Assembly: GCF_010015585.1 (NCBI RefSeq) | Contig: NW_022985068.1 | Coordinates: forward strand, 1,629,911 to 1,693,910 | Direction of reading: 5' to 3' | DNA: 64,000 nt | Source: Eremomyces bilateralis CBS 781.70 | Taxonomy: Eukaryota > Ascomycota > Dothideomycetes > Eremomycetales > Eremomycetaceae | Shown here: in pieces, positions 19,734-52,551 of the stretch | Position numbering within the stretch: position 1 is the stretch's first letter | How the letters are laid out: the number at the start of each line of letters is the position of its first letter | Notes under the pieces: model-generated | What the model saw: the letters and a program-made list of their open reading frames with translations, nothing else | Databases searched by the model: none | Told to the model about the DNA's origin: nothing | Translations under genes and position numbers: made by a program

Positions 19734-19840
19734 ACATACAGCAATGGGAGTTCCCCATAACTCTCCCACGAGCATAAAAGCTGTCGAAATCAAACCGTAA
19801 ATACCACCGAAAAACGTGGGTCCGTCGAAAGACGTGGTTT
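19734..19840 (-). ncRNA. 5S-rRNA-like sequence, copy A
   Basis: On the minus strand its last part reads GGGAACTCCCATTGCTGTAT followed by GTTTTTG, resembling the 3' end of a fungal 5S rRNA and its Pol III T-run stop. The upstream part (CGTTTTTCGGTGGTATTTAC) corresponds loosely to the CCGTCCGCTCTGCCGTAC arm. It aligns with 26011-26120 (about 75% by eye), and in both copies CTCCYTAGTTTTYCAGTCTC follows a little further on. Too diverged to be a working rRNA gene; it may be a pseudogene, a 5S-derived SINE, or the target-side remnant of an insertion. Confidence 0.5.
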
Positions 19841-19889
19841 CTCCTTAGTTTTTCAGTCTCGCTCTCAATCTCGTCGATAAAGCGTACCG

Positions 19890-26010: not shown

Positions 26011-26120
26011 ACATACAGCAATGGGAGTTCCCCTATGGTCTCCCAGCGGTATAAACGAGGTCGAAAACAGAGGGTCAATACCGCCGAAAGACGAGGGCCC
26101 GTCGAAAATACACTCTGGTA
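26011..26120 (-). ncRNA. 5S-rRNA-like sequence, copy B, upstream of the recombinase gene
   Basis: On the minus strand: GGGAGACCATAGGGGAACTC, then CCATTGCTGTATG and a run of eight T. The GGGWGACCATAGGGGAACTC core is shared with the much better preserved 5S-like gene at 46571-46689, and the T-run resembles a Pol III stop. The 5' half is poorly conserved. The homologous copy A at 19734 shares the flank on the recombinase side but not the other flank. Confidence 0.55.
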
Positions 26121-26284
26121 AGGATCGTAAAGATGCCCTTTCTCTGTTGAAATTAGGTGAAATTGCTTGCTTGATTGTTCTAAGATGTTGAAGACATAGG
26201 ATTCCTTTTATAGTAGGAATTGTTGTGCTAACACTTTGTCCTGTGTTCTCTTCCTTAACACTTCCAGTCATCCTTTTTCCAACA

Positions 26285-26395
26285 TTCTCCCTAGTTTTCC
26301 AGTCTCGCTCTCAATCAGGAGTCCTGTTCGCAGTTTCTACAATCTCGCCCTCAGTCAGGATCTCCGTTCGCAGTTCTACAGTACTCTTCTTCAGT
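26285..26395 (+). repeat. ~40-bp tandem duplication in the recombinase 5' region
   Basis: Two imperfect units, CTCGCTCTCAATCAGGAGTC...GTTCGCAGTTTCTACA and CTCGCCCTCAGTCAGGATCT...GTTCGCAGTTCTACAG. The stretch before it matches 19851-19873 next to 5S-like copy A. Confidence 0.6.
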
Positions 26396-27872
26396 TCCAG
26401 TTCCATCGGGTTCGGAGGTAGTCGACACTATCAACGCTCCACGCAGCCAAAATCCTCGGCGTCTATTCCAAGATACGTCTTTGACTATGGCGCCACGACG
26501 CACTATTCGAAAGGGCGAAGCCGGAGAACAAGAGGCAAAGGAGCTTCTAGCTGGCTTCCAGAGCAAGCCCCTCGACGATACGGTCCCAGTGTCGGACAGA
26601 ACTACCTACAAGCGCGGCTACGCCATGGGGCTCTTCAAGGAGTACGAAACACCTGGACTTATCATGCCTATGACCTACACTCACATCCTCTAGATACGTT
26701 CGAGACGTCCTACACCGCGAGCCGGACGATACCTGGTTATCCCTTTGCAGCTCTTCACCAGTAGAGGTAGCCTTGGCTCAGGATACATGTCGTGCCTTTC
26801 TCCAGACCTACGTCTCCGACTCTTGGGACTCCCGGGTTGCGTTGGGAGATCAAGAATCCGAGGAGGTCTGACAGGTTAATCGAGCATCATCTGTCCTAAC
26901 AGTTGTGGAGAGCTCTTGTGCAGGAAGGAGATGAATCAGTCCTTGCACCCAAAAGAAGAGAGAACAGGCATGCCGCGAGGCAATGGAGGCTCGTCAATCC
27001 AAGTGGAAAACTGATTTTAGGACCCGTGTGGGAGATACCTAATGTAAGGTCTGCCCTCTATTTGTGCGGAGAAGGATACTAACGTCCCTGTAGTAGATTG
27101 TCCACGACCTTCCTTTGCTTACCGGTATCTCTAACGAACTTAAGCGCCAAAAGCGGGCCGCGACTGCTCAGGATATAGTAGTCATTATGCAGGCTCTCCT
27201 GAATCGACACGGCGATATCCTTCACTCTACGGCACAACTTAGCGACTTCGCCATGATCGTGCTCTGTATGGCTATTGGCGGATTCCGGACCGACTGTCCT
27301 AGAAACCTGAAGTATGCAGACGTCAGGATAGGGCTCGCTAACCTTAGGGGAAAACGAACGCGTTCGTACGAATCCGAATGCCAGAAAACAATCTGCGAGT
27401 GGCTTCCCTAAAGCCTGCGAGCCCCAGGCGCGAGTTTGCCGTGACCATTTTGCCATGCCGACTGGTCTGCCTTACTAGTCACATCATTGGCCGCGCTCTA
27501 GCACGGCGTACTTTCAGGGCCGGATATACGTCCTTTAGTGAAGTTTTGACCTAGCCGAACCTTCGACGTTGCAAAATTCTTTTCCTTCTGTGGGCACAGG
27601 GACTGAACGATTCCCCATTCGTCGATATCAGCGGGTCACAGTTCTACAGGATATGGTATCGCTACTACGAAGTCGCCGGCATAGAGGATCCTCCGATCCC
27701 CTACTCTATGCGGGTCGGTTCCGGGGGCAAAATTATCGGAATTCTCGGCGAGCTGCTTGAGAATTGGATGCTTATACACAAATCGAATACCCACCAGGAG
27801 TATTATTTCCCGGACTACATGTCTCAGAATCTAACGTGTGTCACGCTGGGCGTGCTCGCGCCTCCTGAGGAT

Positions 27873-28039
27873 CAGGCGGTTGCATATATTGTTACATTGC
27901 TTGGCGCGCAACTCGCAAAAAAACTGCCAAATTTGGGTAACAACTTTTGCAATCGTATAGAATCCTGGATTTCGCCTCCAATACGCGTATCTATATCAAT
28001 TTGACGCGTTTTTGTACCGATTAGCGTGTTTATCGTGAT
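27873..28039 (+). repeat. left terminal inverted repeat of the 4.5-kb element
   Basis: Inverted match to 32205-32398. The inner part holds repeats of ACGYGTTTT and ends GTTTATCGTGAT. Confidence 0.9.
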
Positions 28040-28121
28040 GCCTGACAGGTATTAGTCTATATCTGTTGCGGAAGACGTGTTTTGATGATAATCTAGAGCG
28101 GCATCGACGCCTATACGCCCC

Positions 28122-29246
28122 CCGCGAGGAATCGATGGAAGCAGGCGGTCTAAACTCGCTCGATATCTCCTTCTCAATTGGGATAAGAAGGAGATAGCCG
28201 ACGAGCTCAAAGTCAGTCGGAAGACAGTCTATAATTACGAGAAGAACATCCTTCCCCACGGTTCAGTTCGAGCGCCTCCGACAGGGCGTACTCTTGGACG
28301 ACAGCGGCGAATGACCCGAGCGGATGAGGATGCACTCCTACAGAAACTGTTATATGATGGATGGTCATACCTAGACGAGATGGTATATTGGTTATATATG
28401 GAGAGGGATGTCAGCGTTAGCCAGTCAACGGTCTGTCGAATGCTAAAGAGACGTGGATGGAACCGGAAAGAACTCCATCGGATTGCACAAGGGTAGAGCC
28501 GTGAGCTCCGGGATAGATTCAAGCAGGAGATGAGCCAATACGATACGGAAGATATCGTCTGTCTTGATGAGGCGATCTTCAACGACAAGACGGGATGGAG
28601 ATACCGCGCCTATGCACCCCGAGGGCATACCGCGAATACCTATGATACGGTGCGTCGAGGGGAGACTCACGGTGTAATTGGGGCATACTGTACGGATGGG
28701 CTCCTGTGTGTGGGTATCAAGAAGGGGTATTATTCGCGCGTTGACTTCCTTGAATGGCTCCGGGATACGCTCCTACCGTCGTTGGCGCGGAGATCACCAC
28801 GACCTCAATTGGTATTAATGGATAACGTCTCTATCCATGTTGCCGAAGAGGTGATCCAGATGATCGAAGCAGAGGGACATCTGGTTCTGTTTTCACCACC
28901 GTACTCACCAGATTTTAACCCAATCGAGATGGTGTGGTCGGTCCTGAAGGCCTGGATTCGACGCAATCATCTCTTCGTTAGAGAGCGCTTCCCTAATTAC
29001 GCTCTGTTCCTCCATTTCGCCATTCGAGCAAGTCGGTGCGATAGGTTCGCACTAGAACACTTCCATCACGCTGCAGATGGAACATACTTAGATGCTGATC
29101 AGCTAGAGGAGCTTCAGCAGCAGCTGTTTGAATATGAGACTGGGGAAGGATACACCGAAGAGGTCCCTATAGCTAGGGAGTTTCCTGTTGCTGAAGCGTT
29201 CCCTATCGTCGTGCGCGACGACGGGCCTGACGATAGAGATGTTTGA
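28122..29246 (+). pseudogene. Tc1-type DD34E transposase (one in-frame stop)
   Basis: The frame can be followed from about 28122; an upstream start is not clear. Helix-turn-helix: DKKEIADELKVSRKTVYNYE; second HTH: VSQSTVCRMLKRRGWNRK. Catalytic triad: VCLDEAIFND (Asp), QLVLMDNVSIH (Asp) and PPYSPDFNPIEMVWS (Glu), with 34 residues between the last two acids, i.e. DD34E as in Tc1. A single TAG at 28494-28496 (AQG stop SREL) interrupts it; CAG there would restore Gln, so a CpA-to-TpA change explains it. The tail after the triad (VREDDGPDDRDV-like acidic end) is longer than in animal Tc1. It would cut and join the element's own inverted ends if translated. Confidence 0.85.
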
Positions 29247-29349
29247 TGACAGCATCCCTTTGTTTTAATTGACTCATTTTATATATTGTCTCGACACTCT
29301 AGGTAGTAATAATATAGCTTCTGGATAAGTATGTGGTCTCAAATACCCC

Positions 29350-29515
29350 GAAAGAGAGAGCGCTGCCGAGATTCGAACCCAGATTATCTGTTCCCCCGAC
29401 CACCCCGCCGAGGGACTAGTGGGGACAGGCAAACGAATGAGAGATAGGGAAAGAAGGCATGATCTAGGAACATCCCGTGGTAGAACTTCATATAGGATCA
29501 TCCCGTGGAGGGAGG
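29350..29515. other. spacer between transposase and passenger; tRNA-B-box-like motif and short direct repeat
   Basis: GGTTCGAATCTCGG lies on the minus strand near 29368-29382. A direct repeat TAGGANCATCCCGTGG occurs near 29466 and 29493. No complete tRNA fold was found. Confidence 0.4.
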
Positions 29516-32200
29516 AAACCTCCTCCGGTTCCGGTTACCCTCGGATTACGCATATCCAGTAGGGCGGATGCTGTTCTCGCAGCATCGATATGGCCCTTGC
29601 CCTTAACCTCGCTCTTGAACAGGCGTAGATCTGACTTAAACTGACGTGCCATACCGTCAGTGATACCCTTCGCTAGAGCGAGTGAGTATAACCGTGTATC
29701 TGGATCAGACATAGTCTTCATATCATCTAGCGTCCAGTCGTTTTGTACAATGGTCTCCTTAGCCCGCATCAATTTATCCTGACGTATCTCCGATTGCGTG
29801 TTCCGGATCTTCCAATCAAAGAACTTTATCACTATCTCGATATCGTCTTCGTCCGTGTTGATGGGGCTCGATGGAGCGCTTTGGGAGATGGGGGCGACAG
29901 AAGCTTGACGAGGGCGGTGGTCTTGAGCAGACTGAGGGCGATATTCAGTGTTCGCGAATGTGGTAGGCGGATGGTTGATATCCGACGGTGGCCCGCGAAA
30001 CTGATCTACACTAGATATCGTTAATACCAAGCTAATTCAGGTAACAGATTACTTACGGAGTGCGATGATGGTCCGATCCAGGAAATTGGAACGGCGTGCC
30101 GGCGTCGAAACCACGTCCGTATAACGACGATTGCCCGTATGGAGGGCGAGCCATAGACACCTGTTCTGCCATCTCTCTTTGTTCCTGACGTTGAGATCGT
30201 CGCTCGTTATTCCTCTGCATCTGTTCCTGCATCTCCATCTGCATCTGTATCTGTGTCATCTCCATTATCTGTTTCTGAGTCTCCTGGAACGATTCCATCA
30301 TCGATTTCGACTGCTGTGCGGCAGATAACTGCTTTGGGCGACGAGCAAGCTTATTCACGGCCCCATCCTGTTGCCAGACACGAACCAATTTGACAGGCGG
30401 GCTGGTCAGCGTTGCGTCTCCTGCGCGTATCGCGTTAGCCCAGGACTGCTGATGGATAGCGGTCATGTTATAATGGAGATGATCTGTTGGGTCAACCCAA
30501 CAGAAACCACGCCAGTTGTTACAGTTCTCGTCGTGGCACTGCCATCGATCGGTGATCTGTTTCTCATAGGCGCCAGCCACTTGTATACGCTCCATCCGAG
30601 CGTCCTGTTGAGATAACAGGTTCTGCGTACGACGAGTGGTCTTTGAGGAAGAGTCCGGGGCAGAAGGCGAGCTGGTAATCCGTACAGGGAGAGCATGATC
30701 TTGTGCTTTTGGAGTCGCTGTCTTTATACGCTTTTTTCCCTTAATACCCTCGCAGGTTATCCGGACAGAGAATATCACCCGGACTGGGGAATGGGGCCGT
30801 TCGGTAACGATATCCTCCGACATCGTATGGATACGTTTCGCGACGACTTCAGTAAAGTCCGTGATAGTCTGAGTCTGTATAGAACCACGCCCGGAAAGTG
30901 AGCGGCAAGAGACATCGAGATCACCGTAATCCCAATCCTCCCCATCAGTCCTCTCCTCAATCTTCGCTGATATCTCATCCTCAAGGACCGCGATATCAAA
31001 CTCGCTCGCACGGGACTTCTCTTTCTTCTCATCTCAGGCCTTCTTCGCATTGATATAGAGGTACCATTCAAGAATTATAGTCCAATCGAGTGGGACGGTA
31101 TCGAAATCTCTGTTTAATCGGCCGGAGGCGACTTCGTCGTTGACCTCTGACGTCGTCGGCGAAAGAATGACCATCTGTTCCCGGTGTTTCTTTAGCGCAC
31201 GCTTATCCATCTCAAGCTGGAGATGGTAATCGGTCGAGTCCTGGAGAGGCCTGAACCAGTCTCCCCGTTCAGGATCTTGATCATGGGGGGCCTATCCTGT
31301 CTAGCCCTGGTACGATCAATACCGGTCGAGAGGAATTCTTCAATCCCCTGTTGGTCTACAGGCGTCCTGATATGTGGCTGACGTTTTTGGCGCTGTATAA
31401 AACGGATGTCCTTGCCCGCCTTCGGCTGACCTTTCTATTTCTCTAGTTCCTCCCTTTGCATCCTCTTCGCTTGCTCGTGGTCCCGGGTAACCCCAGCTAG
31501 ATCATCGCAGATGACACTATATGCCCATGCTCTACCCGGTCGGTTATCTGGTGCCAAGTCACTGTCTAACCAGGCCTTATTCGAAGCGATAGTCGGGGAG
31601 TTATCGACATAACGAGATATCCCTGCTTGCCCTGGGCGCCTCTGGGCGTTGGGAGTAGTATCCACGTCGGTATCTGTATCATCCTCCTCTACTGATTCTT
31701 CAGTGCCAGTCTCCTCCTCTGTAGGAGGAGGTTGGCTACTTCCTCCGGACTTTTTAGCAGGTTGCTGCTTCGCCCTAGGTTTAGGAGGAGCGGTCGTTTT
31801 CTTTCGTTACCGTGGTCAGTTGCTCGGTCGTATCGCCGGATGAGGTTTCCTTCGACCGTTTAGCTCGCTGTTTTGGTGGTGCTTTGGGCTTAGAGGTGGC
31901 CTTTGACTTCGCGGCGGGTTTCTGTGCCGGTTGACTAGGAGCCTTCTGTTTCCGGGCCGGAGGAGCCAACACCTCCTCGTGGCGGTCTGCAATATCATCT
32001 CCAGCGTCTTCGTTCACGATCGGGTCCTCGAAGGTGACTCGACGACGGTTAGATCGGAGTCCATACGAAGGTGGAGGTATGAATTGAGAAGTTTGGGTCT
32101 TGCCCTTGGTCTTGGGGGGAAGAGGAGGCATCTTGACCGGTCTGGCGTTCCACCCACGGTTAAGGAGGTCAAGATTACGAGAAATAGATCGATTCGTCAT
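29488..32200 (-). CDS. passenger gene of the Tc1-type element, unrecognised, probably broken upstream
   Basis: Best defined at its 3' end: complement(join(29488..30010, 30057..30823)), with a 46-nt intron (GTAAGT...CTAG) that keeps frame. That part has a Cys motif WQCHDENCNNWRGFCW, a Gln/Met-rich coiled coil (about 30180-30290) and a compact C-terminal module (IEIVIKFFDWKIRNTQSEIR, NDWTLDDMKTMSDPDTRLYS, GITDGMARQFKSDLRLFKSE). Further upstream, minus-strand pieces to about 32200 give a basic Ala/Lys/Pro-rich N-terminus (MTNRSISRNLDLLNRG) and RPGRAWAYSVICDDLAG, but frames change and a TAG lies at 31435. Whether one gene or two is unclear. A DNA- or RNA-binding accessory protein is a guess only. 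Confidence 0.5.
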
Positions 32201-32204
32201 ATAG

Positions 32205-32398
32205 ATCACGATAAACACGTTGATGAGTATGAAAACACGTTAATTGGTACGAAAACGCGTCAAATTGGTATGGGATATGTGTATTGGGGGCGAAATCCAG
32301 GATTCTATACGATTGCAAAAGTCGTTACCCAAATTTGGCAGTTTTTTTGCGAGTTGCGCGCCAAGCAATGTAACAATATATGGATATGCAACCGCCTG
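32205..32398 (-). repeat. right terminal inverted repeat of the 4.5-kb element
   Basis: Inverted match to 27873-28039, with one extra AACACGT-type internal unit near 32217-32245. Confidence 0.9.
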
Positions 32399-33519
32399 AT
32401 GCCCTTTTCTCCCTCCTGGCGGATTTGTCTTCCACGGCGGATCCCCATGCCCCATGCCACCTGAGTGAGGACGAGGATAAAAAGCTTCTTGAGCGACGAG
32501 ATGTGCAAGCTCTCCAGGACCATAAAACGGGACAGCGCAACCTATTGGACCGGTTATCTTTCTTGGCTATTCGAGAGAAGTAGGAGAAATACTTTCGCAA
32601 GGTACAAGATGCAAGGGCGCTGGGCGGCAATATCACCATTGCCGAGTTGCCAATTTCGAACAGCGATGTCATCGTTGATGCAACGCCCGTTGATGAAGAA
32701 GGCCGGGCTTCATTTATTAAGTTACTGGCTAGCTACCCCCGCCTTTTGAAGAGAAGTAAGAGGTATGACTCTAACCGAAACGCTCAAGATCCATGTCCTC
32801 GGTCTATCTGTGTCCTTTGCAATCCGACTGGGAAGGTTTTATCTTTCTCACAACATTCGTCTCTCACCAGGCACTTTCAGATCAAACATTTACGACATCA
32901 TCACCTAGATCAAGGACGCGAATGCCCAGTTCCTGACTGTGGCCTGACTATTGACGCTGGTGTATCTCCGTTTTACTGTCACTTAGAACGCCAGCACGGC
33001 AAACACTATACACCCGCTGCTCATCGACGCATCGAACGTTCGATCTGCGTCCTCTGCGATCCGACCGGGCGTCAATTGTCCTTTTCCCAGCGCCAAAATT
33101 TGACAGAACATTTCAAGGCTGATCATCTACCCTCGGGCCACCTCGATCAAGCTCGTCAATGTCCAGTTCCTGACTGCGGGTCAATGATTGAAGCTGGAAT
33201 AGACCCCTTTTGCGGTCACTTGCAGTGCACGCATGGGAAGCATTACACGCCTCATCTGTGCAAAACTGGGTTAAAGCAGCGTGAACATCATCGATCATAT
33301 AAGCGAGTTCAACCAGCATCCGAACTTCAGAATAAGAGCACAGTTACGGTTAATGTAAAACGGAAAGCAGATGATGATACCGGGAGGAAATTGACCGACT
33401 TAGGTCTGCTCGAGCAAATGCTCCAGGAGGAAGTCTTTGCTGTACATTCGGATGAAGAACCGGTTACGAAGAAACGAAAGCAAAACGGAGTTGCAGATTA
33501 TTGAAGAATTCTAAGTTGG

Positions 33520-34380
33520 GTAACAGTTGACAGCATCGGTATCATAAAGCTCGTCAATGGAATTGGGATATAACTTAGGAGAAAATTGCAGCGTAAATCA
33601 TCTTCTTCCAACCTTCGATGCTATATATGTGATTATAAGTAGTCATCTGACCTTGACGCGGCGTAGCAATGCTCACCCTGTGATCGCTTTGATCTGCTCC
33701 CGCTGTGTGCGGATTTCTCCAGGTCTGCAACCCGCTCTTCGAGGCTCGATATACCGGAGATAACGCGCTGCATTTCTTGTTGGTGATATCCTTGAATTAT
33801 ATGTATCACCTTATCCGCTGCAGACTTTGCAATTGAATGGGTATAGGTGACATGAGCTAGGTGTTGCTGCAGTGTAGCCATTGCAATATCTGACTGGTCT
33901 TGCTTCATTCTCCAGTCGGCTACGTGAATGTCCATACCGCGGTTCTTGTAAAAGTTAACATTTGTTCCTCCCAATAAAGAAGGATCAACTTGCCGTATTC
34001 TCCGTCTGAACATTAAAATCTGGAGACTCAGGGTTCAGCGGCCTACTATTAAGAAGCGTCGCTGATGGAGCGATGTGTTCCGTGGGACGGGAGTCCGGAT
34101 CCGGCAGGACAAAGTTGTCGTGTAACATATCTAATGCGTGCTCTACCATAGATAAGAACGTTGACGGAATCTGTCTTGAAGTGCTCTAAAAGGGCATTGT
34201 CAATATAAACCCATTTTCATTTGCTGAGGACCCGGAGCTTTCAGTCGCCCCAGACGCTTGAAATGACCACTTCTCCGGCACGACTCTACCGAAAATGTTC
34301 TGCGGCATCCAGTCCCATATAAAGATGAGTTGTTCTCGTTTTCGTTCACTGATCGCCCGGCTAAATGCCATCTGGGCCAC
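33520..34380 (-). CDS. unrecognised coiled-coil ORFs next to the recombinase relic
   Basis: Minus-strand pieces: 34380-34189 (MAQMAFSRAISERKREQLIF), an open stretch at 34200-33995 (EHALDMLHDNFVLPDPDSRP), and 34013-33633 (LLGGTNVNFYKNRGMDIHVADWRMKQ, then HSIAKSAADKVIHIIQGYHQ and ISSLEERVADLEKSA, a coiled coil). They could be exons of one gene, but I did not find a clean splice solution. The block lies tail to tail with the DUF3435 gene. The family is unknown to me. Confidence 0.35.
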
Positions 34381-35245
34381 TTTCGCCGGTTACATGTTCA
34401 TACCTAGAACACAATCTACGAAAAATGAGGAGCCACCCGTGGCACAAAGTGACATTGCCTCAGAAAACTCAAACCATATGGACCATATGGACAAGGAAGT
34501 GAATGCTGAGCCAGCAATCGACGGACAACGAGCACTCCCAAAAGAGAGTGGAGAGACCCTTTGTCTAGATCAAGTAAGAGAAGTCGCATGCAAACTACGA
34601 CAAAGAGATCGGAGTAGGCAGGGCCAGCCCTCAAGGGTAGAAAATATTTAGTAGGGTAGGGAGCCTCGTTCTATTAGTTAGACTTATCCGACTGATTCTA
34701 CTGAATAGTTGGATTTCAGGGTGATTTGATCATAAGCAGCAGAGTTGTATTGTGTGAGTTGCGTGTTCTAGAGCGAGAGAGGTTGCGCGAAAAGATTCGA
34801 AAATTGTTAAGAGTAACCTCCCTCCCTGCGTGCCGAGCCAGATCATGGGTACTTTTACTTCAGAGCAAGCCAGACACTGCACACACAGTGATATTTCTAA
34901 AGTTTTGTTTAATTCGTACGCTGTAGCCATTCCTTAACTTCGGGCCAACTTCTATCTAAAAAATTACGTTGGCATCGCCGCCTTGATATTATAAGGAAAA
35001 TAGATTGCCGAATACTCCTGTCTTCGGTATTTAAGTACACTTACTACTGAGTAGTAGGAGCCAGAGTTTCCAAAATTTGGTCGACTAGCACACCTTATAA
35101 ATCGCCCGGACTTTCAAACCCGTTCTTGGATAATCCTCAAGCTCGCTCTTCGAACCTAGTCACGTCGAAGCTGAACGTTGTTCTCTCTATCTCCTCCTCC
35201 TTAGTTCAGAAGTCCTTAAGCCCCCAATATCTTGGATAAGGGGGC

Positions 35246-35677
35246 TCACAGGTCTCCAATATTGCATTGCATCTCGATCATCAAAACCTTGAAGGCGGGC
35301 AGCATAGAATACTCCACGCTCCCAACAATGCCAACGTCTCGGAGCTCAAGAACTTCGAGCGTGCTAATCTCAAGTAGGCTTTCTATAAGGAAGGAGAATA
35401 CGTCATGGTCTAAAGAAAGTGCATCTGGCGATCTAGGACCGGAAATTGAGGCTTTTCTGAGCTTGCTAAATGCGGCTGTAATAGCTGCCTTTGTTTTAAA
35501 CAATTCCAGCGGCCACTTGCTAGAGCCACCCACATTTACGGAAAGAATTCGAAGGGTTGGGAGCATACGAAGGACGAAGAGGCTACCCCTCATCGAGCCA
35601 CCAACAATCAGCGTCACCGAGGACTGATTCGACTGGTTGACCCATCTTTCCGCATCGAGAAGATTAACTCGCCTCAA
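35246..35677 (-). pseudogene. LRR-like fragment
   Basis: A 143-residue frame with leucine-rich periodicity (MLPTLRILSVNVGG, LLEISTLEVLELRDVGIVG), as in the C-terminal part of fungal F-box/LRR proteins. No F-box and no upstream exon was found, so it is probably a remnant. Confidence 0.35.
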
Positions 35678-35744
35678 GCTAAGTTACGCCCCTTAACAAG
35701 GCTCCAGAGATCCTTTTAGATTTCGGGCATTACTTGGACCTGTT

Positions 35745-36210
35745 GAATAAAAGTACAGTTGGCTCAAATATTGCCCAATCTCTGTCACGCGTCCTTGTAA
35801 CGCTTCCAAAGCAGAGGATATATTTTAATAAATGTTCCTCTTTGTTCACATCGGAGGACCTCCACCACTTGATCTGCTGCTGAGTCCGTTCATGCTGTTG
35901 TAGACCAAAGAACATGGCATCATGAAGCATATGAATTTCAGAGCTCAGCTCTTCTCGTTTCATCTTCCAATGGGCAATTCGAATCTCTAAATACTGAACC
36001 AATATAAGTCAAGGTTAACATTAAAAAAAATGAGTTATGTACTAAAAGATCTTCTAGGTTGCTGGGAACACGAGGGCCGATCCCTTTAATAAGTCTATTG
36101 CGAATATCTTTGGGCGAAATAGAGCTTGTCACTCCTAGAGAAGGAAAGATGGCTGCTGATGAATGCTTCTGATAGAGTTGGATCAGTTCATTGATTGGTA
36201 CAGGATGATG
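35745..36210 (-). CDS. unrecognised small spliced ORF with amphipathic helices
   Basis: An upstream stretch (INELIQLYQKHSSAAIFPSL, GVTSSISPKDIRNRLIKG) ends at DLL, and a putative intron (GTACAT...GTTCAG, about 36000-36048) leads to YLEIRIAHWKMKREELSSEI and a helix-rich tail. It resembles in layout the IHVADWRMKQDQ segment at 33.9 kb. Speculative. Confidence 0.3.
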
Positions 36211-37320
36211 CTCCTAGTATACGGGAAATATCGGCCGAACAAGCGCCAGAGGCTTTCGTGCTCTTATAAGAGTATCGCTTAGAGAAGAGCCGCCTTGGTG
36301 CGACTATGAGGTCATTGCAAGGGGTTTCAATGGAGAAGATATGTAAAGGCAATAGGATGCTAGAAGGAAGTAAGGTTTTCGTTGGTTTGCTTGTTTTTAG
36401 CAAACTGATATGGTATTGGGGACGAGTGGAAGATTTTTTTTTACCATATACGCGAGTATCTGTAAAGGCTCAAACCTCGAAGGATTTGGTATAGCTGGAA
36501 CGCTGTTGATTTGCTAAAGAGAAAAAGGAAAAGATCTCTTTCACTGGCGATCTGCTATTTTACATCTGTGACTGTCACAGTAGTTTGACTTCAGGCAATT
36601 CAAACTCTTTTATACACACCTAAAAGTGCAGATTTTTGTGTTTAACCGCATGCCGTGGTCACTGCTGACGCTCCAGGAGCCGGCCATAGGAAAATTTCGT
36701 CGCAACGTTGTCGCAGCTACTGATTTGCGGAGAGCCTCCTTTTGCGCCCAAACAGTGCGCTTCCTCCACAGCATCGCCATCAAGCTTGCGCAGCTGGCGA
36801 AACTCATAAATGACGGTTATCCGAACTTTTGAGTCCCCTGGGAACGACGAGAACCTCCTATCTGCCGTAGGGCTGCCGTGGGAGGCGATCTCATGCAACG
36901 TCGCCACTCTGCTTGATACCTCCAATCAAAGAAACGCGATCCCGAAAGAACCCGCATGATGACTAAGGAGTAACTTAACTTATATAATCTGCTTTTGTCT
37001 AGCCGTGAGCCAAAGCTGTGGCTGTGTGCTCTTCCTCCTAAAAATAGATATATCACGAGGGCGGGAGCGGCCATCTCAAGGCATGACAAGCGTACAGTGA
37101 CTTGCGAAATCAGTGTCGGGCTTTTCCTGCATACAAAGCGAAGTAGCAACTCACTTCAACGTTATACGGCGCTAGCAGGGAGGGCGCCGACCTGCTTATG
37201 CTACACCATTGTGAAGAGTTTATGAGAAATAGGCTGCTGGCTCGATTGCCTCTAGTTGTTTGTGAGCATCACTGCACGGTGAGGACGCTCGTATCATGAA
37301 CCATGGAAGACTTTGACAAG
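36210..37320. other. intergenic, no gene seen
   Basis: AT-rich, with T-runs (for example 36436-36443). No coding signature before the HNH gene's stop codon. Confidence 0.45.
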
Positions 37321-38699
37321 CTAAGCACTTATATTGCATTCAGCATTATGTTCTTGACTTTCAAGTACACTCTGTCTCTTGGGGAGACTTGATAGGTTAC
37401 AATGAAATCTCTCATCGCCGTCTCCGTGCTGCCCATCACTGTGACTTTCACCACTTTCGTCTTCCTCTGATGTTAAATGATCACCTCGAAATGAGGAAGC
37501 AAAGGATGATGATTTATGATCAAAGCTCCTCTGTCTCTTCCTGCCTCTGAAATCTTCTTCGCTGCACGTTTCAAGATCTTCTAAGACATCGTCCCGTTGT
37601 CTCTTCTTTGGGCTTTGGCTCCTGCTCTTGACTCGGGCGGCAAAAATATGCCTACATTTGTCGCCAGACGCGTCCAGGATCCTGCTCGAGCCATCCTCTC
37701 CGTCCACAAGAACAAGCCTTCGTGAAACTCCCTGCCGTAAGAAAGTACTCTGTGCAAGAATAGTCCAAGCAAACCGAGCGAACAGACACTCCACGCTTAC
37801 ATCCATAAGTGGCTGCAGCGTGACATTATGGTATAGTTTCGCAAGCTCTCCTGTCAAGCCAGGGGCAAAGACATGGACAACCCAGGAACTCCCTTTAGGT
37901 ACAGCAACCAACCATTTCTGGTCGAACACAGTGTGAATATCCGATCGTAGCAAAATGGAGTTTCGAGCATCATCAGTTGGATCGGTCATAGTGGCGGGAC
38001 GAGAAGTGTATTGAAACATCATGTTTGAACTGAACCACGGCTCCTCACTCCGAGGAATGAGATGCGCAGCTTCCGTGCCCTCAGTGTGGCTGGTTACTCT
38101 GCAAGAAACATCGCGGGACAAGAGGATCTCTGTCAGGCCGCTCTGTCGTGGTAAGATGTCGGACCTGGGGATGCGGAAGATGTCCGATTTCCAAAAAGGT
38201 GGTAGGTTATCGTGGGGGAATTGAAAGTGGGCAAAGGATGGGATGATAGGGTATTTAGGATCTGAGAATAGTTTATGTTAGTTAGTATGTGGAATATAGC
38301 GGTCCAGCGAAACATTAATCCTCGAGACATACCGTCATCAGGGTCCTCTTTGATCCGGAAATAGTAATTCTTCAGCGTTAGGAGGGAGTCTGCCTCCGCT
38401 GCAATTCGTCGTCCTTTTCTCGTCTCTGTCAAAAATCCTTCCCAGGTGCAATTTGCAATTATCGCACAAGCAATCCTTGCCGTCTCGTGATGAATGCCCC
38501 CTTCAGAGCTATCCAGTGCTGGCAATACGAGAAGAATATTGTTTGTGTCTGGATATCCTGGATGGCGAAAATGCACATTGTATGAGTCATTGTTCTTAGG
38601 AAGAGAGGCACCAAGATCCGAGTGCGTTGGTGGTGGGTAGGGTTTGCGAGCTTGAAAGTTGGAGGAGATCGAAGCGGATGGAAGAGTGGTATTTGGCAT
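37321..38699 (-). CDS. HNH-nuclease-domain protein of the fungal HNH_2 family, about 435 aa
   Basis: Join complement(37321..38261, 38333..38699); a 71-nt intron with GTATGT donor and CTCAG acceptor, frame kept. The N-terminal half shows NVHFRHPGYPDTNNILLVLP and ETARIACAIIANCTWEGF. The HNH_2 core follows the junction: CRVTSHTEGTEAAHLIPRSE, WFSSNMMFQYT, DDARNSILLRSDIHTVFDQ, then WVVHVFAPGLTGELAKLYHN. The His of AAHLIPR and the Asn/His of NSILLRSDIH form the usual HNH metal site. A Ser/Glu-rich basic tail follows. The family is expanded in Pezizomycotina, with no defined role. I start at the ATG at 38699; the frame stays open up to an ATG at 38927, so the N-terminus is uncertain. Confidence 0.8.
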
Positions 38700-39059
38700 T
38701 TGGGCTGTAGTGATTTGGTTTATTGGAGGAGATTGAGCGGGTGCAAGTAGGTGGAAAAGACCGAACTCTGGACTTTTGTATAGAATACCCTTTGTGGAAG
38801 CGATAATGTTGTCGATATGTGGATGGCTGCTTGTTGCTGTGGATGTTTGCTGTCGTCGCGTCAATAAAACTGCGCAGGTGTTCCAAACGCGAGGGTGCGC
38901 GATAGCACGTGACTTACCCACTCCCACTCTGCCATTAATTACAGTGTTAAGGAATACGCAATCGGTATAAACCAGAAATATACCAATAACAACGTCGGAA
39001 TTACCTGCCAGCTCTCTGCTGAGTATAATTGCGCAGCGTAGCGGAGCAGTTTAAAATCC

Positions 39060-39228
39060 AAATGGGGCTCCTTTTCCAAAAAAGCACACACGCTCATTGG
39101 TCAGTTGAAAACTCTCTGTGATTGGTCCAAAAATTTCCTTGGCAAAATGATTGGCTGAGAAAAGGGTCCGGAAAGTTCCGTGTCTCTGTGATTCGTCCAA
39201 ATTACTTGGCAAAGTGATTGGCTGAAAA
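39060..39228. promoter_or_regulatory. CCAAT-box cluster in an imperfect tandem duplication
   Basis: ATTGG (CCAAT on the minus strand) occurs near 39096, 39121, 39150 and 39217, with a degenerate ATTCG near 39191. The units CTCTGTGATTGGTCCAAAAA...CTTGGCAAAATGATTGGCTG and CTCTGTGATTCGTCCAAATT...CTTGGCAAAGTGATTGGCTG show a ~70-bp duplication. It lies 360-530 bp upstream of the HNH gene start, in its promoter orientation. Confidence 0.55.
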
Positions 39229-39855
39229 GTTCTTCCATCTCCGAACTCTGTGGACTTCGTTGTCGTCGCCGTCGCCAGGTCCTGCGCTCTCGTTACCTAC
39301 ATGGAGCACCTTTTCACTACTATCACGGCATCAGGCGAATCCTACATTTGGGGGAGTGAGACATAGCATCGTAAGGTATAGACAATTCGACAATGCAGAG
39401 TAGTTGAGTCTCACGGACAATGTCCATAGAAGAAAGTGAAGAGAAAGAAAGCAAGATCCTCGAGACATCTCCGGGCATCATCTATGTTCTTATACCGGCC
39501 GACAGTCCTGAAATCATCTACACGGACACTCGTTGCCTTCATCGTGTACGATACAGTGTCGTCTTGAGCGATTCCATCCCTCAAAATCAACCAGAGGAAG
39601 TCATGCGGGCGAAAGACTGTAGAAACATATGTGCATGTGGTCGAAGGTGGAAGAGTGAATGAAGTAGGGCCGGTCACATAGATTCTACTCAGCTCCTCTG
39701 CTTAAAATCTATTTGTTTTTTCATCTCTTACTCACAATTTTCTTCTCTACCTTATCGCTTTCCTGGCACCTTTGTCGACTCTCTATCAATTAACTACTAT
39801 CGGTCTAGCATCACAGTCTATATTGTCAATTGGAGATCTATCAAAGCGATCCCGC

Positions 39856-42800
39856 ATGGCGGAGGTCAGCCTAAGTACTATACCTCCTCCTGGAGGTTAT
39901 GCACCCGACCCCCCTTCCGATGTTCCCGACCCATCCAATCCACTGCATCGATGTATTCACTGTAAACATCGGAAGGATGCTGCTTATGACCTGAAGCGCA
40001 ATGGAGAGTATTATGCTAAGTGTAAGGCTTGCCGTGAGAGTCATACATCTTCTGTAAGTGTGTTTCGAAGTCCCGCATCATATTCAAACTAATATTACCC
40101 TAGAGGAAGCGCCCTCGCTATCAACGAGATACAAGCGCATTAATCCAGAGGCAAGTGAAGCCTCGTCTACAGTCGGAAGGATTCTTTCCCCGAGGTCAAC
40201 ACGAGGAAGATACTCCTTCTCAAGCAGCAGTTCGCAGAGACTTCGTGGATATTCAACGTGAGCACCGTTCTCGCAGGAGACACGGTGAGATTGTCTCTTC
40301 GACGCCCAATTTCGATGACTTCGTTACACAACGGACGCGTCCGCCTGGACAGTATCCTGGCGCGACCCATGTTCCATCCCGGACTCCACCTAATCTGTCC
40401 CAGCTTGGAAATCCAATCTTTCCGCCTATTGAAGACGAGCAGGAGGATGGTGAGCAACCTGTCCGCGGTCCAATCTTCCGCCGATACTCCCTACCTTCAC
40501 TTCGCGGTCGAACTCGGAATCTATCTCGGTTTACTGGATCAAGCGCTCGGTCCGAATCCTCTAGAGGTTTACTTCGCGAACTTCAACCGCCTCCTAGCCA
40601 GGAGGCTCCCGAACTACAATACTTTCTGTGTAGACTCTGTGACACCTACCGTGAAGAGTCTCGGAAAGTGAGACATATGGAATCGTGTACCTATTGCAGG
40701 GATTATACTCCTGTATCTGAGCGTACGCAGTGGTGTTTGCAAGGTGGTCATGAAGTGAACCAGTCTTCGTGCATGGAAGATAAACAAGAGCAAGGAGCAG
40801 ATTCCGAGGCCTTATATTTCCTCAACTGTGTATCCTGTCGTCAAAGTACAGACGGGTGGATTAATAATGACCATCGCCGGAGAGCCCCAGAGCAGTCTCA
40901 ACGCCGCTCTAGCTTGGATCCTCCGAGAAGTCGCACCCCTTCGCGTCCAGGTCCCCATCGACGCGCTCGAGAACTTGCTACCGCGGATCTACTAGCCCCT
41001 AATCCTCCTATCGATTTCTCTAGTCTAACTCTCGGAACCACGGATCCGGCACTCACCGAACGCGATAAAACGCTTATACAGAACTTTCATCGAAAGGTCG
41101 ATTCTGTTAATATGGCCACCTGTGTCCGCTGCCATGAGCGATGGCTTGGGATAAGCTACGACGAGAACGGTGTTTGCAAGTCATGCCTTACCATTGATGC
41201 AAAGCGTGGCCCCGACGAACCATATCTCTGGAGCGATGAGAACAATGCCGATCCCGGGGAATTTCCGGATATTTGTCTCCCTAAGCTTTCTCAGATCGAG
41301 GAGATGCTTATCTCGCGTGTCCATACCTTTGTTGAGGTTCGGCAATACCGCGGCCAGCAGTACAAGTACTCTGGTCATATCTGTCACTTCCTCTCGAATA
41401 CTGCACGCGTTTATGCGCGTCTCCCTCTCTTGCCTAGAGAGCTAGATGTTATCATCCTTCGCCCTTCTAATCATGCTACGGATCCAAGGGTTAATCGTCA
41501 ATTCATTCGCGATTATCGAGTGCGTCGTAGCGCAGTGATAAAATGGCTCTACTTCCTTCAAGAACACCATCCTGCCTATGCTTCTATCGACATTGATCTA
41601 ACTCGACTCGACGCCTTGCCCGAAAACGGCTCAGTTGAAGAGGACCTGCTTATCTATGACCACCAGGATGAGCCCAATGTTGAAATGCAGGCAGACGACT
41701 TTGACGACCCAGAAGACGACGATATATCCCCGCCGCAAGCCAGTGCAGTCCCGGACTTGAACCCGGACCGCCAAGAGATCGATCAGATGCGTCTTGAAAT
41801 TGGAGCACGTAGAAGGGAACGGCTCCAGGCCAGTCAAGCACCCTTCATGACCATGCCATCCCTCCGTGCGACCCCTCTTGCAGACTTGAACAAATCAGTC
41901 CCATGTTTGACATGGGCTTTCCCTACACTGTTTCCATACGGGAGGGCGGAGTTTGCCACGCCAAGGATCCGAGCTATCAAGTACAACGAATTCGTCAAGC
42001 ATCTGCTTCTCTACAAGGATGGACGCTTCGCACAGCACCCTCGCTTTCGATATGTTGTCTTCAATACAATCATGAGGAGCCAAGTCAACTCACGCGCGAG
42101 CTTTTTCGTCAAGAAGATCCGCCCTGGTCCCACTGACTTAACAGTTGACGATCTTCGACGAGCTTTCGAGGAAGATACTCCAGAAGCGGAAGCTATGGTT
42201 AACTCTATCTCCCGTTACTCCGGCAGTATGCGCGGCACCCGTTCATTTTGGGCAGGAAAGCGTCGGGCTTTAGAAGCCGGTGTCCGACAACTCGGGTGTC
42301 CGCATCTCTTTATCACCTTCTCTGCAGCCGATTATCACTGGGATGATCTGATGCAATCCATGCCGAACTACGAGTAGTGGAAATCCGCCACTTCAGTACA
42401 ACGTATTCGCATTGCTCGTGATGCGGTCCGAGATAATCTATTGATTGTCGCGAATCATTTCCACCGTCGTTTCGAGGCCTTCCGGACCGAGGTGCTTATT
42501 CCAAAGTTTAACATCGTCGACTACTGGCATCGTTTCGAATGGCAATCACGCGGTAGTACCCATGACCATGGTTCATATTGGATGGAGGGTGACGGCTTAC
42601 CTAGTCCTGAACTTCAAGACAATATCGACCAACTGACGGAATTTGCTCGGTTTTGGGGAATCCACATCCATGCTATCAATCCAGACCGTGGGCGTGATTG
42701 GGTTCGTCCTGAGGAGAGGTCAGAACTGCAGATGCCGTTTGCGGACCAACCGAACACACTGCGCCATCTTTCCAACCTACTGAACCGTGTTCAGGTTCAT

Positions 42801-45427
42801 CATTGTACTAGGCAATATTATCTTCGTACTAATAAGACGACTAGCATTGAGGAGTGTCGTATTAAGGCCCCGTGGCCCATTACGACTACGCCAGAGATGG
42901 TGAAGGATCCTGGAAGATCGTGGTACCGTTCCCAATCCGAACGCAATGACCCAAAGCTCAACCAGTACAACCCGCTTATTACTAAGGCATGGTGCGCCAA
43001 TACGGACATCCAGCCCTGTACCGGTAAAGATGGAGTTATCTTCTATCTCGGTAAGTACACTACCAAGGCCGAAGAGGCATCAGAGTTATATCGTGATATG
43101 ACTTCAAAGCTCCTTCCGCGTCTCAATTCGAATCGCCCCTACCAATCACTCGTGGAAAAGACGATGAATCGTCTCGTAGGCGAACGGAATTGGTCTGCGC
43201 AAGAGATCTGCCATCTTCTCTTAGACCTGCCTTTGTGCTCCCAGAGTCGGATGGTCATCAATGTTGACTGTCGCCCGGAGCAGCAGCACGCTGAGCTCCA
43301 CTTCCTCGAGGATCATGAGAGCGGTGTTCAGGTTCGCGCTGGCAAGTCACTGCTTCAGAAGTATAAAGATCGTCCTCCGGAGTGCGATAGCATTACTTAT
43401 CTCGAGCTTCTGCGTGAATATGACCTCCAGAAATACCGAAGGCGACCTCGTGCTTCGGAACGGGTGTTGAACTTCTTCCCACGCTATCGTCCTGAAATCG
43501 ATCCAGAGAACTTTGCTCGAGTAAAGTTGATGTTGCACCATCCGTTCCGTGAAGTCGATGATCTAAAGGCATACCTTTACGATCCAGAGAAGACTTGGGA
43601 TACGTTCTACGAGGCTTAGGAAGAGTGTAAAACGTTTCATGAAGGCCATACTCCCGACGGGTATGAGGTGGAGATGCTAACGGGGGATAATGATGAGGAG
43701 CCACTCGATTCCGAGGAGGAGGATATTCTTGCTTCCTGGCAAGAGCTTGCACAAGTTTGCCCCGGTCGAGATAGTGCGCAGGTCGAGGACCCTGACCGCA
43801 TTGGCGACCGAGACATCGACCGTGCATATATCCTTGATGGCATGATCGGTAACTATCTCGACCTCGATGTCGAGTTCTGGAAACGGATAAAGGCGGACTT
43901 TCCGGCTAACTTAGTAGCCGTTGCTGCTGGGACATATGCTAGCCTAAATGGCAAACAGAAACTCTGTCAGGACCTCGTCATGCGTCACTTTCACGCCTAC
44001 CAGGAGCACCGGCCTCCGCCTCAGCTCCTGCTAAGCATCGATGGTAAGGGTGGGACAGGGAAGACGTACCTTATTATGATCCTTTCCGAGGCGCTTGAGA
44101 CTGTCGCGAGTGCGATAGGGCATACTACCTCCCCAATCGTTCGGGCTGCCCCTACCGGTGTAGCCGCGCATAACATTTCGGGTAAGACCCTTCATTCCCT
44201 ATTCCGCCTCACTCCGAAGGCCAAGCAGTACGAAAAGTTGTTAAAGCAAGCCGCTCAGGCTATTCAGACTGCATTCAAAGGTGTTCAATATATCGTCATT
44301 GACGAGAAGTCAATGGTTGGCTTGAAACTTCTTGCTTGGATTGACCGTCGATGTAATGAGATTTGGCCTGATCGTAGTGACCGTCCATTTGGTGGCCTCA
44401 ACGTTATCCTAGCTGGCGACTTCTTCCAGCTGCCGCCCGTTGGCGAGAAGCCGCTCTTTACCAGCCAGAACAACATTTCAAAGAACATCGATGAGAGCCA
44501 TGGCCATAGACTCTATTAAGGCTTCTTCCGAACAATTGAGCTAGACGTTGTTGTCCGTCAGCAGGGACCTGAGGAGGCAATGTTTCGAAATGCACTCGAA
44601 GACTTGCGAACCGGGAATGTCACGGTTGATAACTGGCGCCTTCTTGCTACGCGAGTTGCTTCTACTCTCTCGCCCAGTGACGTCTAAAGCTTCCAGGGTG
44701 CCCTTCACGTCTACGCCAAGAAGGCAGACGTCATTCAATTCAACCATACACAGATGCGCGAAAGTGGCCGACCAGTTGTCCTGATGATTGCAACTAATGA
44801 GGGGAAAGGTGCAGCGAGCGCCACTACCGAACAAGCCGGCAACCTGCAGAACACCTTCCCTATATCTATTGGTTCCGTGTCATGCTTACCGAGAATATCT
44901 GGACCGAACGAGGATTGGTAAACGGTACTATGGGTAATGTACGCGACATGGCCTGGGAAGCGGACGTTCAAGATCCCCGGAAGTCGCCTCCCACGGCATT
45001 ACTGGTTGCATTCGACAGCTATGATGGTCCATCCTTTCGAGAGGTTAACGGTGAAAAGCTCGTGCCTATATTCCGGTCCCGTCGAGACTTCGTTCGCGAT
45101 TCTGTCGCCTGCCTGCGTACCCAGTTTCCAATGGTTCTGGCGTATGCTATCACCATCCACAAGAGCCAGGGAATGACACTAGAAAAGGCAGTTTTGAACA
45201 TCGCTGATAAGCGGGACTTTGCGCCGGGATTAACTTATGTAGCTGTCTCGCGTGTTAAGTCGCTGAAAGGGGTGTTATTCGAAGAATCGTTTGATCTACC
45301 GCGATTGCGCATGCAAGTAACTGCTACAACTCAAGCTAGGAACGATGATGTCGCTCGGCGCGCATTGTATCACGTCGCGTCCTCCGTACATACTACATAC
45401 CGTCTACTCCTTGCGCAGCATGGCTAA
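39856..45427 (+). pseudogene. Helitron RepHel gene, nearly full length, with a few breaks
   Basis: Exon 1 39856-40053 (MAEVSLSTIPPPGGYAPDPP, zinc-finger-like CIHCKHRKDAAYDLKR...CKAC), intron 40054-40103, then one long frame. The Helitron_like_N region includes LTWAFPTLFPYGRAEF (about 41910). The Rep nuclease has the HUH-type motif RGSTHDHGSYW (about 42550) and the two-Tyr motif FYLGKYTTKAE (about 43040). The PIF1-type helicase has Walker A DGKGGTGKTYL (44040), Walker B IVIDEKSMVGL (44290), LAGDFFQLPPV (44410), ITIHKSQGMTLEKAVL (45150) and TYVAVSRVKSLKGV (45235). Four in-frame stops (42375 TAG, 43617 TAG, 44517 TAA, about 44685 TAA) and one frame change near 44880 interrupt it. Rolling-circle transposition is the family's mode. 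The 5' TC and 3' CTRR ends were not located. Confidence 0.9.
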
Positions 45428-45955
45428 TGTGTCTATACAGGATCCTCAGCAATTCGCGGTCGGTTTCATGCCACCGCCTCTACGACGTGTTTAACTTCCG
45501 ATCCGATCATCCTCTCCACCTCGGAGGTCGTCCCCGCTACTTGCGAGTGAGATCGATACACCTACAACGGGGTCTAACCCGTCCGGCACTCAAGGTTCCT
45601 GAATGGAGATTTAGAGTGCTTAAAAACGTTCATAGTTTGCTTGATCGTCCCATCAATCAAAAGAACACCTCAATAAGGTTGGTTGTTAGGTGCAACCTGA
45701 GTAAGCGGGAATCGCTTGATTCATATCCTCTATAACGTTGCGGATATGGAGTCTGCGTAGATAGATCAAAATCAACGAGTTATAGTATATCATCTGCTGT
45801 TTATTTCATTATGTGGTTTAGCTATCGGTGAAACCAGTACTAATAAGCGCGTGTGATTGGCCGTAGAGGATCAGGACTTCATCAGCAAACTGTGGCTGGG
45901 TATGCTGTTAAAACTTGGGAGGTTCTGCTCCCTACGCTGCGCACCCCTTGGGTCC
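45428..45955. other. Helitron 3' flank; end of element not resolved
   Basis: Hairpin CATATCC...GGATATG (45722-45748) and ACGGG...CCCGT near 45577, but no CTRR directly follows either. Confidence 0.35.
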
Positions 45956-46420
45956 ATTTATGACCCTCGGGCGTATTTTTCTGGATGTCTGGTTCCGAGT
46001 ACCATCTTTTAAGACCATCACCCTTTGTCACTCTCCTGCGCACGTAGGCCCGGATATCATCAGTGATAAGGTCACTCTGAATAGGAATTATGTCGTCCAT
46101 ACGAGCAAATTTGCTGATTATAGACTCGATGTCTCGTTCTTGGCGGCTTGTCACAAGGAGATGGACATTCTTTCGGTAGGAGCTTTGGAAATCTTTCATC
46201 CACGAGAGCAATCCTTCGCTTGGCGACCCTGTCCTCGCGTTGCATTCATCAAGAGCATCGAGAACAATCCAGACTTCTTTTACTTGCAGGATCATCTGTA
46301 AGAAAGTCTTATAAAGTGCTTCACACGATGGTTGTCGATGTCCGTCTTCGTAAGAGGAAAGGAGAGTCTGTAAAGCTATCAAAGTATCTCCAGAGTGTAG
46401 GGCAGTCCAAATGAGCTCAT
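45956..46420 (-). pseudogene. NACHT-domain fragment of a second NLR-type gene
   Basis: Minus strand: FNPDELIWTALHSGDTLIAL, then KEVWIVLDALDECNARTG (Walker B), KNVHLLVTSRQERDIESIIS and IQSDLITDDIRAYVRRRVTK. This is the middle of a fungal NACHT domain. No P-loop upstream (a 5S-like gene lies there instead) and no winged-helix or ankyrin part downstream, so it is a fragment. It is less similar to the intact NLR at 11.3-13.8 kb than to the NPHP3-type NACHT group, judging by the DALDECN form. Confidence 0.75.
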
Positions 46421-46570
46421 CTGGATTAAATGATGAATTACGGAGGTGTACGAAGGGAGGGATTGCCGGGGGCGCAAAACATAAACCAACCATCTAATTC
46501 CCCGTAACGTATCCCTCGCTGACTAAGAATGTATGGTAACATTGTTGGCCAATGGCAGACAAGCCGAGTA

Positions 46571-46689
46571 GTACTACAGTGAGAGAGTTCCCCTATGGTC
46601 ACCCACCGTAGTACTATTCCATCTCTAACCTGCTTGAGTACGGCAGAGCGGACGGGATGCCCTATATTCAGGTTGATGTGGCCGTATGT
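46571..46689 (-). rRNA. 5S rRNA gene or pseudogene, about 119 nt
   Basis: The minus strand begins ACATACGGCCACATCAACCT, contains GGGCATCCCGTCCGCTCTGC and CGTACTCAAGC, then TAGTACTACGGTGGGTGACC and ATAGGGGAACTC. These match the conserved arms and loops of eukaryotic 5S rRNA (loop A/helix III CCCGTCCGCTC; loop E/helix IV TAGTACTACGGTGGGTGACC), and the length fits. The 3' end (CACTGTAGTAC) pairs poorly with the 5' ACATACGG and no T-run follows, so a diverged pseudogene is likely. Fungal 5S genes are often dispersed singly, as here. Confidence 0.75.
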
Positions 46690-52062: not shown

Positions 52063-52551
52063 AGGGGTTGGGTAGGTAAGAGAAGGAAAATGTGGGGAGA
52101 AGTTGAAATGGAATTTACTGCATCTAGCTTGGAAACGTTTGGAAGCGATGGCGTTGGAGCGTTGGATTGCATGTTAGAATTTTCCCAGACATTTTTGGGT
52201 CATGAAAAGATATACTGGTACATACGATGACTTGACTATGTTCATGCCGAAGGATAGGATTTTATTATTTTTGTTCTGGGGCGGATTGACTTTGACTTGG
52301 ACTTGGTATAGATTTAGGGAGATATCCAAAATTGTTTAGGATCACCTTCGATACACGATAGCGTCCAAAACCATAGAGATGTCAAATTAGTTCTATGAAC
52401 CGAGCATGAGCTGATCGACGCCATGACCTGCTTGAATTGCCGGTCCCCAGGATATTTTACATATGCCAACCGACGGCGGGAAGACCGAGACCATGCAAAA
52501 TGAAACCTTCTCGGGTATTGTAGTTTCTAAAAGCAGAGCTGAAAGGTACGG
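52063..52551. other. 3' flanks of the transporter and Rpn11 genes
   Basis: Convergent 3' ends; nothing further seen. Confidence 0.5.

Follow-up and report, generated by a model that had tools for sequence, protein, structure and literature searches.

A captain-like DUF3435 gene at one end of a degraded, probably Starship-like element that splits a 5S rRNA gene in Eremomyces bilateralis

The 64,000-nucleotide stretch of Eremomyces bilateralis CBS 781.70 DNA analysed here (the window, C2:1629911–1693910 in a 26.6-Mb genome of 62 contigs labelled C1, C2 and so on) carries a DUF3435-type recombinase gene whose two halves lie either side of a transposon, and this raises the question of whether the gene was once the captain of a larger mobile element and, if so, where that element begins and ends. 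Our answer, which draws on paralogues and repeats compared inside this one genome, is that the gene is very probably the captain of a cargo-type element, now dead, which belongs with the Starships among tyrosine-recombinase elements and integrates into 5S ribosomal RNA (rRNA) genes.

The borders of the element were recognised from the 5S gene that they interrupt (5S nucleotides, nt, are numbered here with ACATAC taken as nt 1; feature coordinates are collected in Table 1). An Rfam scan covering the whole window at E-values of up to 5 gave a single match, a minus-strand 5S sequence at 46571–46689 (64.4 bits, E = 3.1e-11), in which the likeness to intact 5S genes is lost from nt 106 onward, and a stub at 26011–26032 reading ACATACAGCAATGGGAGTTCCC is the 3′ end of the genome's main 5S type on the minus strand. 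The left stub and the right part make up one 5S gene with an overlap of GAGTTCCC (5S nt 98–105), and the direct repeats at both borders thus belong to the 5S target, as is found in Starships. The DUF3435 gene is the first in the 20.55-kb element delimited in this way and reads inward, which is the place and direction of a Starship captain.

The two borders also share a short sequence which is not part of the usual 5S gene. After the core the right junction of the window has CTATGGTC, just as the left end of the window does, and in the same place ACGTGGTC is found in all 13 intact type-A 5S genes and in the five other right junctions that we located; CTATGGTC is present at 6 of 21 left ends and is absent from a second, solo left end at 19.7 kb. 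In our view the CTATGGTC at the right junction arose when strands were exchanged or repaired inside the attachment site, and because it stands at both ends of the window element, the ends at 26.03 and 46.59 kb would belong together and probably derive from one insertion. For six right ends scattered randomly over 26.6 Mb, simple arithmetic predicts about 0.002 cases of one lying no more than 20.6 kb from a given left end and in the right orientation, an estimate which assumes random placement when 5S genes are not randomly placed.

Both termini were found to belong to a repeat family distributed across the genome. Left termini were collected by a DNA search with the captain leader (window 26033–26490) and by pattern searches, and right termini by a DNA search with window 46380–46600, together with a search for 5S sequences that added one on C5. 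We examined 21 left termini, two of them in the window; besides the one at 26033, 18 came from the DNA search and two from pattern searches (the second window terminus, at 19734, and a degenerate terminus on C24 whose 5S stub has three errors). Nineteen of these follow a 5S 3′ stub and the other two are fused head-to-tail to a right terminus, with the stub sequence matching at 17 or more of 22 bases in 18 of the 21; by comparison, one of 2000 random window segments reached this level, and as it scored 22/22 we presume that it was itself a genuine stub, of which the window has two. Eight right termini were seen, and besides that of the window the search identified four which are joined to 5S sequence (C1:484981, C20:162329, C46:30248 and C19:7270), with a sixth, diverged right end on C5 (the same query also produced ten matches to a separate internal repeat of 49–53 bp). 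The six right ends join the 5S gene at an identical position, with one core change each in C1 and C5. Taken together with the 19 left junctions, they place insertion within 5S rDNA at a single position of the gene.

The remaining right termini form the two head-to-tail junctions, at C1:1607282 (C1:1607150–1607450) and C2:778727 (C2:778580–778860), and in both the core lies between the right and left termini, somewhat changed in the case of C2; this is as expected of site-specific recombination. Judged from the sequence anatomy, the end-placed recombinase, the direct repeats derived from the target, the precise 5S split and these head-to-tail junctions are the hallmarks of a site-specific tyrosine-recombinase element. 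In the mechanism we propose, the recombinase would join the circular junction of the element to the 5S gene at GAGTTCCC, with the outcome that the 5S 3′ end would border the captain, the remainder of the 5S gene would border the opposite end of the element, and each end would carry a copy of the 8-bp core. The reaction would probably proceed via an excised circle, with the DUF3435 protein as its likely catalyst.

The recurrence of these junctions is also what speaks against a resident, non-mobile DUF3435 gene which merely happens to lie between 5S pseudogenes. Such a gene would agree with the window captain copy being a pseudogene, and with DUF3435 genes frequently occurring alone (as stated in a section of PMC12134995), but the region upstream of the captain belongs to a family of repeats which at 19 of 21 places abut one and the same 5S stretch. 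Because repeated 5S junctions are not expected of a resident gene, we find this explanation barely credible for the family.

The 5S genes of the genome were surveyed with RF00001 and by a DNA search that used the 5′ portion of the 5S gene as query, and it should be noted that these counts are lower bounds, as both searches scored the best candidates only. RF00001 gave 22 matches, 15 at 83–89 bits and seven lower, and six of these seven are the right junctions of the element family and the seventh is truncated where its contig, C6, ends. The DNA search found 23 places, which are the same 22 plus a half-relic at C20:152930. A second 5S type at C5:444425–444544 and C1:1125039–1125158 does not have the exact target core (it reads GAACGTTCCC on C5 and GAACATTCCC on C1, compared with GGGAGTTCCC), and no element junction was seen in these two copies.

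Two relatives carrying both ends were identified. At C20:153112–162466 the termini are found in the same orientation 9.35 kb apart, flanked on the left by half of a relic 5S gene at a distance of about 110 bp and on the right by an intact 5S gene at the usual spacer of about 67 bp, and they enclose a captain relic and frames for 6PGD (6-phosphogluconate dehydrogenase), type I PMI (phosphomannose isomerase), a xylose-isomerase-like barrel and SDR (short-chain dehydrogenase). Other copies of 6PGD and PMI are at C2:1942233–1943233 and C3:910181–910566, and the C20 relative would be a compact element with additional copies of central sugar-metabolism genes. The second relative, which was read at both ends (C1:526000–532300 and 484700–487700), has its termini at C1:531988–484997 on the minus strand, 47.0 kb apart, and also contains a captain relic; C1:522961–523358 matches an interior piece of the window element (34435–34736) at 90–96% identity.

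These relatives are of importance in weighing a more modest explanation, in which a short Crypton-like element (about 3.5 kb and recombinase only) lies at 26.0 kb, the 46.6-kb 5S junction marks another, older insertion, and the sequence between is ordinary genome plus transposons. This would account for the two captain paralogues that lie close to a contig end on C9 and C1, which have only about 3.7 kb in common, a 5S gene included, and beside which no right terminus was found by the DNA search with window 46380–46600, and it is in keeping with the existence of unpaired ends such as the second left terminus in the window. It is not what would be expected from the C20 element, where both termini surround cargo genes and adjoin 5S copies, from the window's left-end letters CTATGGTC at its right junction, or from the right termini, of which six of eight join 5S and two of eight join a left terminus, and we consider it distinctly improbable. 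The solo left terminus lies 6.3 kb to the left of the element and is probably a scar left earlier by the family to which the 26.03–46.59 kb element belongs; no captain remnant was found there with the C9 exon.

Table 1. Features of the window associated with the putative Starship-like element, with the evidence for each.
Feature	Position	Strand	Evidence or comment
Putative Starship-like element, whole, with the direct repeat counted once	26033..46592	+	Left terminus CTATGGTCTCCCAGCGG..., right terminus ...GTAGTACTACAGTGAGA
5S 3′ end (nt 98–119) left of element	26011..26032	-	22/22 identical to intact 5S end
Left direct repeat GAGTTCCC	26025–26032		Last 8 bases of stub
5S 5′ part (nt 1–105) right of element	46585..46689	-	RF00001
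Right direct repeat GAGTTCCC	46585–46592		
Conserved right terminus	46459..46584	+	DNA search; alignment of 6 right ends
Insertion of ~140 bp in captain leader	26145..26283	.	Alignment break; absent from C9 and C1
DUF3435 gene, whole, split	26487–33504	+	ATG at 26487, 454 bp from left terminus
DUF3435 gene, left part, with lesions	26487..27872	+	93.8% to C9; tblastn with C9 exon
DUF3435 gene, right part, four C2H2-like zinc fingers	32401..33504	+	81% protein identity to C9
Nested Tc1-like DNA transposon, 4526 bp	27873..32398	.	Empty site in C9 and C1; inverted repeats
Helix-turn-helix part of transposase	28092–28496	+	HTH_32 E = 5.4e-07; stop codon separates DDE_3
DDE_3 transposase	28497..29246	+	PF13358 E = 2.6e-31
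Passenger frames, several broken pieces	29488..32239	-	Open reading frames
Interior pieces common to relatives	33651..37300	.	33652–33887 with C24; 34435–34736 with C1 element
HNH_2 endonuclease-like frame	37324..38277	-	PF13391 E = 6e-12
Nested Helitron, stop-broken	40104..45424	+	Helitron_like_N PF14214 E = 2.7e-26; PIF1 helicase PF05970 E = 1.4e-25
NACHT/NLR-type fragment	45885..46493	-	PF24883 E = 2.2e-11; PF05729 E = 8e-06, just short of its cut-off
Solo left terminus after own 5S 3′ stub	19734..19870	+	Pattern search

The gene itself was compared with the contig-end paralogues of C9 (locus L074) and C1 (L075), neither of which has the insert. Homology between the window and C9 starts at 25995, and window 26283–27872 aligns at 93.8% identity and 32398–33650 at 87.5% (93.2% and 86.5% for the same blocks with C1). 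In C9 the two blocks meet at GAT (L074:4818–4820) with nothing between them, and they abut likewise in C1. The initial annotation, made from the sequence of the window, had described two collinear halves of one DUF3435-type gene at 26481–33504, with C2H2 zinc fingers on the right and a 4.5-kb Tc1-type insert in between, and this description is upheld with coordinates holding to within a few bases; the two paralogues match both halves, and an origin of these from unrelated genes was rejected. The uninterrupted C9 exon (625 amino acids) scores 59.3 bits with the PF11917 (DUF3435) profile, for which the cut-off is 25.8 bits, and of the window left pieces 27555–28004 scores 15.3 bits, below this cut-off, and 27097–27411 gives no match. 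Arg, His and Tyr residues near the active site align with those of other DUF3435 frames of the genome, as judged by eye. Four distinct C2H2-like patterns are present in the tail of the C9 copy and four in that of the window copy, compared with 0.10 on average and never more than 2 in 1000 shuffled C9 tails; Pfam zf-C2H2 has an E-value of 0.02 in the C9 exon, under its cut-off, and a PDB sequence search gave a single weak match (2dlk, E = 0.41).

The possibility that the captain is unique in the genome was rejected, as relatives are found on C9, C1, C24 and C6. We also note that several DUF3435 genes are located about 1–20 kb from contig ends (C9, C1, C6 and C23). The identity between the window and C9 is 97.8% at the left end and drops rightward, with successive values of 95.1, 93.8 and 89.3% and then 83.1% beyond the gene (it is uneven in 200-bp windows). 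That between C9 and C1 drops less, beginning at 99.3–99.5% on the left and reaching 94.7%; gene conversion that started at the 5S side, or else constraint, is a possible cause of this gradient. As a possible trace of repeat-induced point mutation (RIP), transitions between the window and C9 were counted with no dinucleotide context, and they have A/T in the window 41 times and the reverse 21 times in the left half, and 39 and 37 times respectively in the right half.

The sequence at 27873–32398 is an insertion because the window blocks on either side of it are contiguous in C9 and C1. It has outer ends CAGG...CCTG, an AT duplication at 27871–27872 and 32399–32400 (AT also flanks four related loci), and inverted repeats of 109 nt at 96% (27883–27991/32274–32382) and 39 nt at 90% (27993–28031/32233–32271), and no Pfam family was found at E below 0.1 in the four passenger pieces scanned. 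The DDE_3 transposase, helix-turn-helix, terminal inverted repeats and 2-bp duplication resemble those of the Tc1/mariner (IS630) group, in which the usual duplication is TA. This insert differs in duplicating AT, as seen in the empty-site comparison and at the four related loci, and in that its arms are long, at about 150 nt, and passenger frames lie on its opposite strand. A short relative of 332 bp in the same AT-duplicating family is found at C1:1031734–1032065.

It had been proposed that the captain was killed by this transposon, and in the stronger form of this idea nothing but the transposon disabled a working captain, and the element was thereby frozen in its present place. The gene is indeed split by the insertion, but it is also broken by three one-base gaps relative to C9 in the left half (introns included), by a frame change inside the exon found using tblastn with the C9 exon, and by a stop right before the frame opening at 32584 in the right half, and we regard the transposon as rather unlikely to have been the sole cause. 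The C1 contig-end paralogue, in which the insert is absent, also has one stop in its right half.

A giant mobile element starting near 26.0 kb, led by this gene and with the genes to its right as candidate cargo, had also been suggested. The large element has been substantiated in that both ends could be located by sequence, and the term giant is marginal for a total of 20.55 kb, or about 16 kb minus the Tc1-like insert. Candidate cargo extends up to 46.59 kb and not beyond, as the right terminus has already been passed where the genes to the right of 46.7 kb are found, and the right part of the window was rejected as cargo. Even within these limits the interior is mostly nested transposons, repeats and fragments with little clear host-gene cargo: in addition to the features listed in Table 1, C10 holds a 97% copy of window 37781–39029, the 39.0–39.9 kb region consists of repeats present elsewhere in the genome, and small frames with no Pfam match also occur between 33.65 and 46.46 kb. 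The frames outside the element include thioesterase, ankyrin-repeat and tyrosinase frames to the left of 26 kb, of which the tyrosinase is at 24.2–24.9 kb, and MFS and JAB frames to the right of 46.7 kb.

Some further repeats were noted in the course of this analysis. The insertion in the captain leader is a dispersed repeat of about 140 bp, parts of which occur alone at C1:521268, C1:2277672, C11:671877 and C13:395725. A repeat of about 105 bp in window 36460–36571 is found at 28 or more further places, with six of the listed copies no further than 300 bp from the end of their contig (C4, C2, C12, C38, C53 and C61), and is possibly subtelomeric. The G+C content in 1-kb steps is about 43–53% before 51 kb and about 48–64% after this (window 51000–64000).

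A number of points weigh against identifying the window sequence as a Starship-type element. The Pfam score of the window captain copy alone is under the cut-off, only three pairs of termini (window, C20 and C1) were found from 21 left and 6 right, and none of these three has a working captain (the C20 and C1 captains are relics, in the case of C1 as far as this was read). The relic to the left of the C20 element is a half gene at about 110 bp instead of the usual 67-bp spacer, and no terminal inverted repeats were noticed at the element ends, with no search aimed at them. The 20.55 kb of the window element is largely nested transposons, without which it would be 16 kb or less and near or below the lower Starship size limit, and, in the sequence that was read, clear cargo is found only in the 9.35-kb C20 element, which is under 15 kb; the Starship size range is given as 15–700 kb in sections of PMC12134995 and PMC12289983. 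Having considered these points we still find that the window element is most likely Starship-like, a degraded and small 5S-targeting Starship on the anatomy seen in one genome.

The junctions described here may also be relevant to the broken 5S sequences of other fungi. In this genome the potential scars comprise six right-junction 5S fragments, the C20 half-gene and 19 left-junction 3′ stubs. The 5S pseudogenes of Aspergillus nidulans reportedly carry a foreign 'block C', an unconfirmed lead on which the titles listed by a literature search offered nothing about 5S, and a search for DUF3435 together with 5S rRNA returned no paper. Truncated 5S pseudogenes make up 18–83% of the 5S sequences in filamentous fungi (Rooney and Ward 2005, as cited in a passage of PMC5555474). 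We suggest tentatively, and with somewhat more doubt than confidence, that these truncated 5S pseudogenes of filamentous fungi are largely attachment-site scars left by Starship-type elements that target 5S, with 5S genes acting as reusable attB-like sites at which elements stack head-to-tail and then decay to solo ends. If broken 5S genes are Starship scars, the birth-and-death of fungal 5S genes would become a record of past transposon traffic.

Most captain-like genes are orphans with no known borders, and Starships are usually found by comparing strains, according to a section of PMC12289983. Here one genome was enough to read both borders, since the element targets a 5S gene, and the same approach could be used to bound orphan captains in fungi with dispersed 5S genes.

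Among the known systems, Cryptons have a tyrosine recombinase and short direct repeats and are a few kb in length with no cargo. The family described here has the same type of recombinase and short direct repeats, but its C20 and C1 members span 9.35 and 47.0 kb, and those of C20 and the window hold more than a recombinase. A second system, Voyager, is found in Macrophomina. From the portion of PMC10128009 that concerns its target, Voyager is a DUF3435 element of a group inserting into 5S rDNA, and is similar to the window element in both respects, but the Voyager target AGAATACAGGGC best fits the E. bilateralis 5S gene at nt 20–31 (10 of 12 bases, a fit equalled in 3 of 1000 shuffles), whereas the window family inserts about 70 nt further along, at nt 98–105. 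There is also a likeness to the Osiris Starships (Enterprise family) of Aspergillus fumigatus, which in the sections of PMC12153272 dealing with their insertion are described as inserting in and fragmenting 5S rDNA, with direct repeats of more than 6 bp going with 5S targeting, and which share with the window family the 5S insertion and fragmentation, a captain of the tyrosine-recombinase type placed 5′ in the element, direct repeats and variable cargo. The four Osiris haplotypes described there vary among strains and have mean lengths of about 38–138 kb, in contrast to the degraded 20.55-kb element of the window which is known from one genome.

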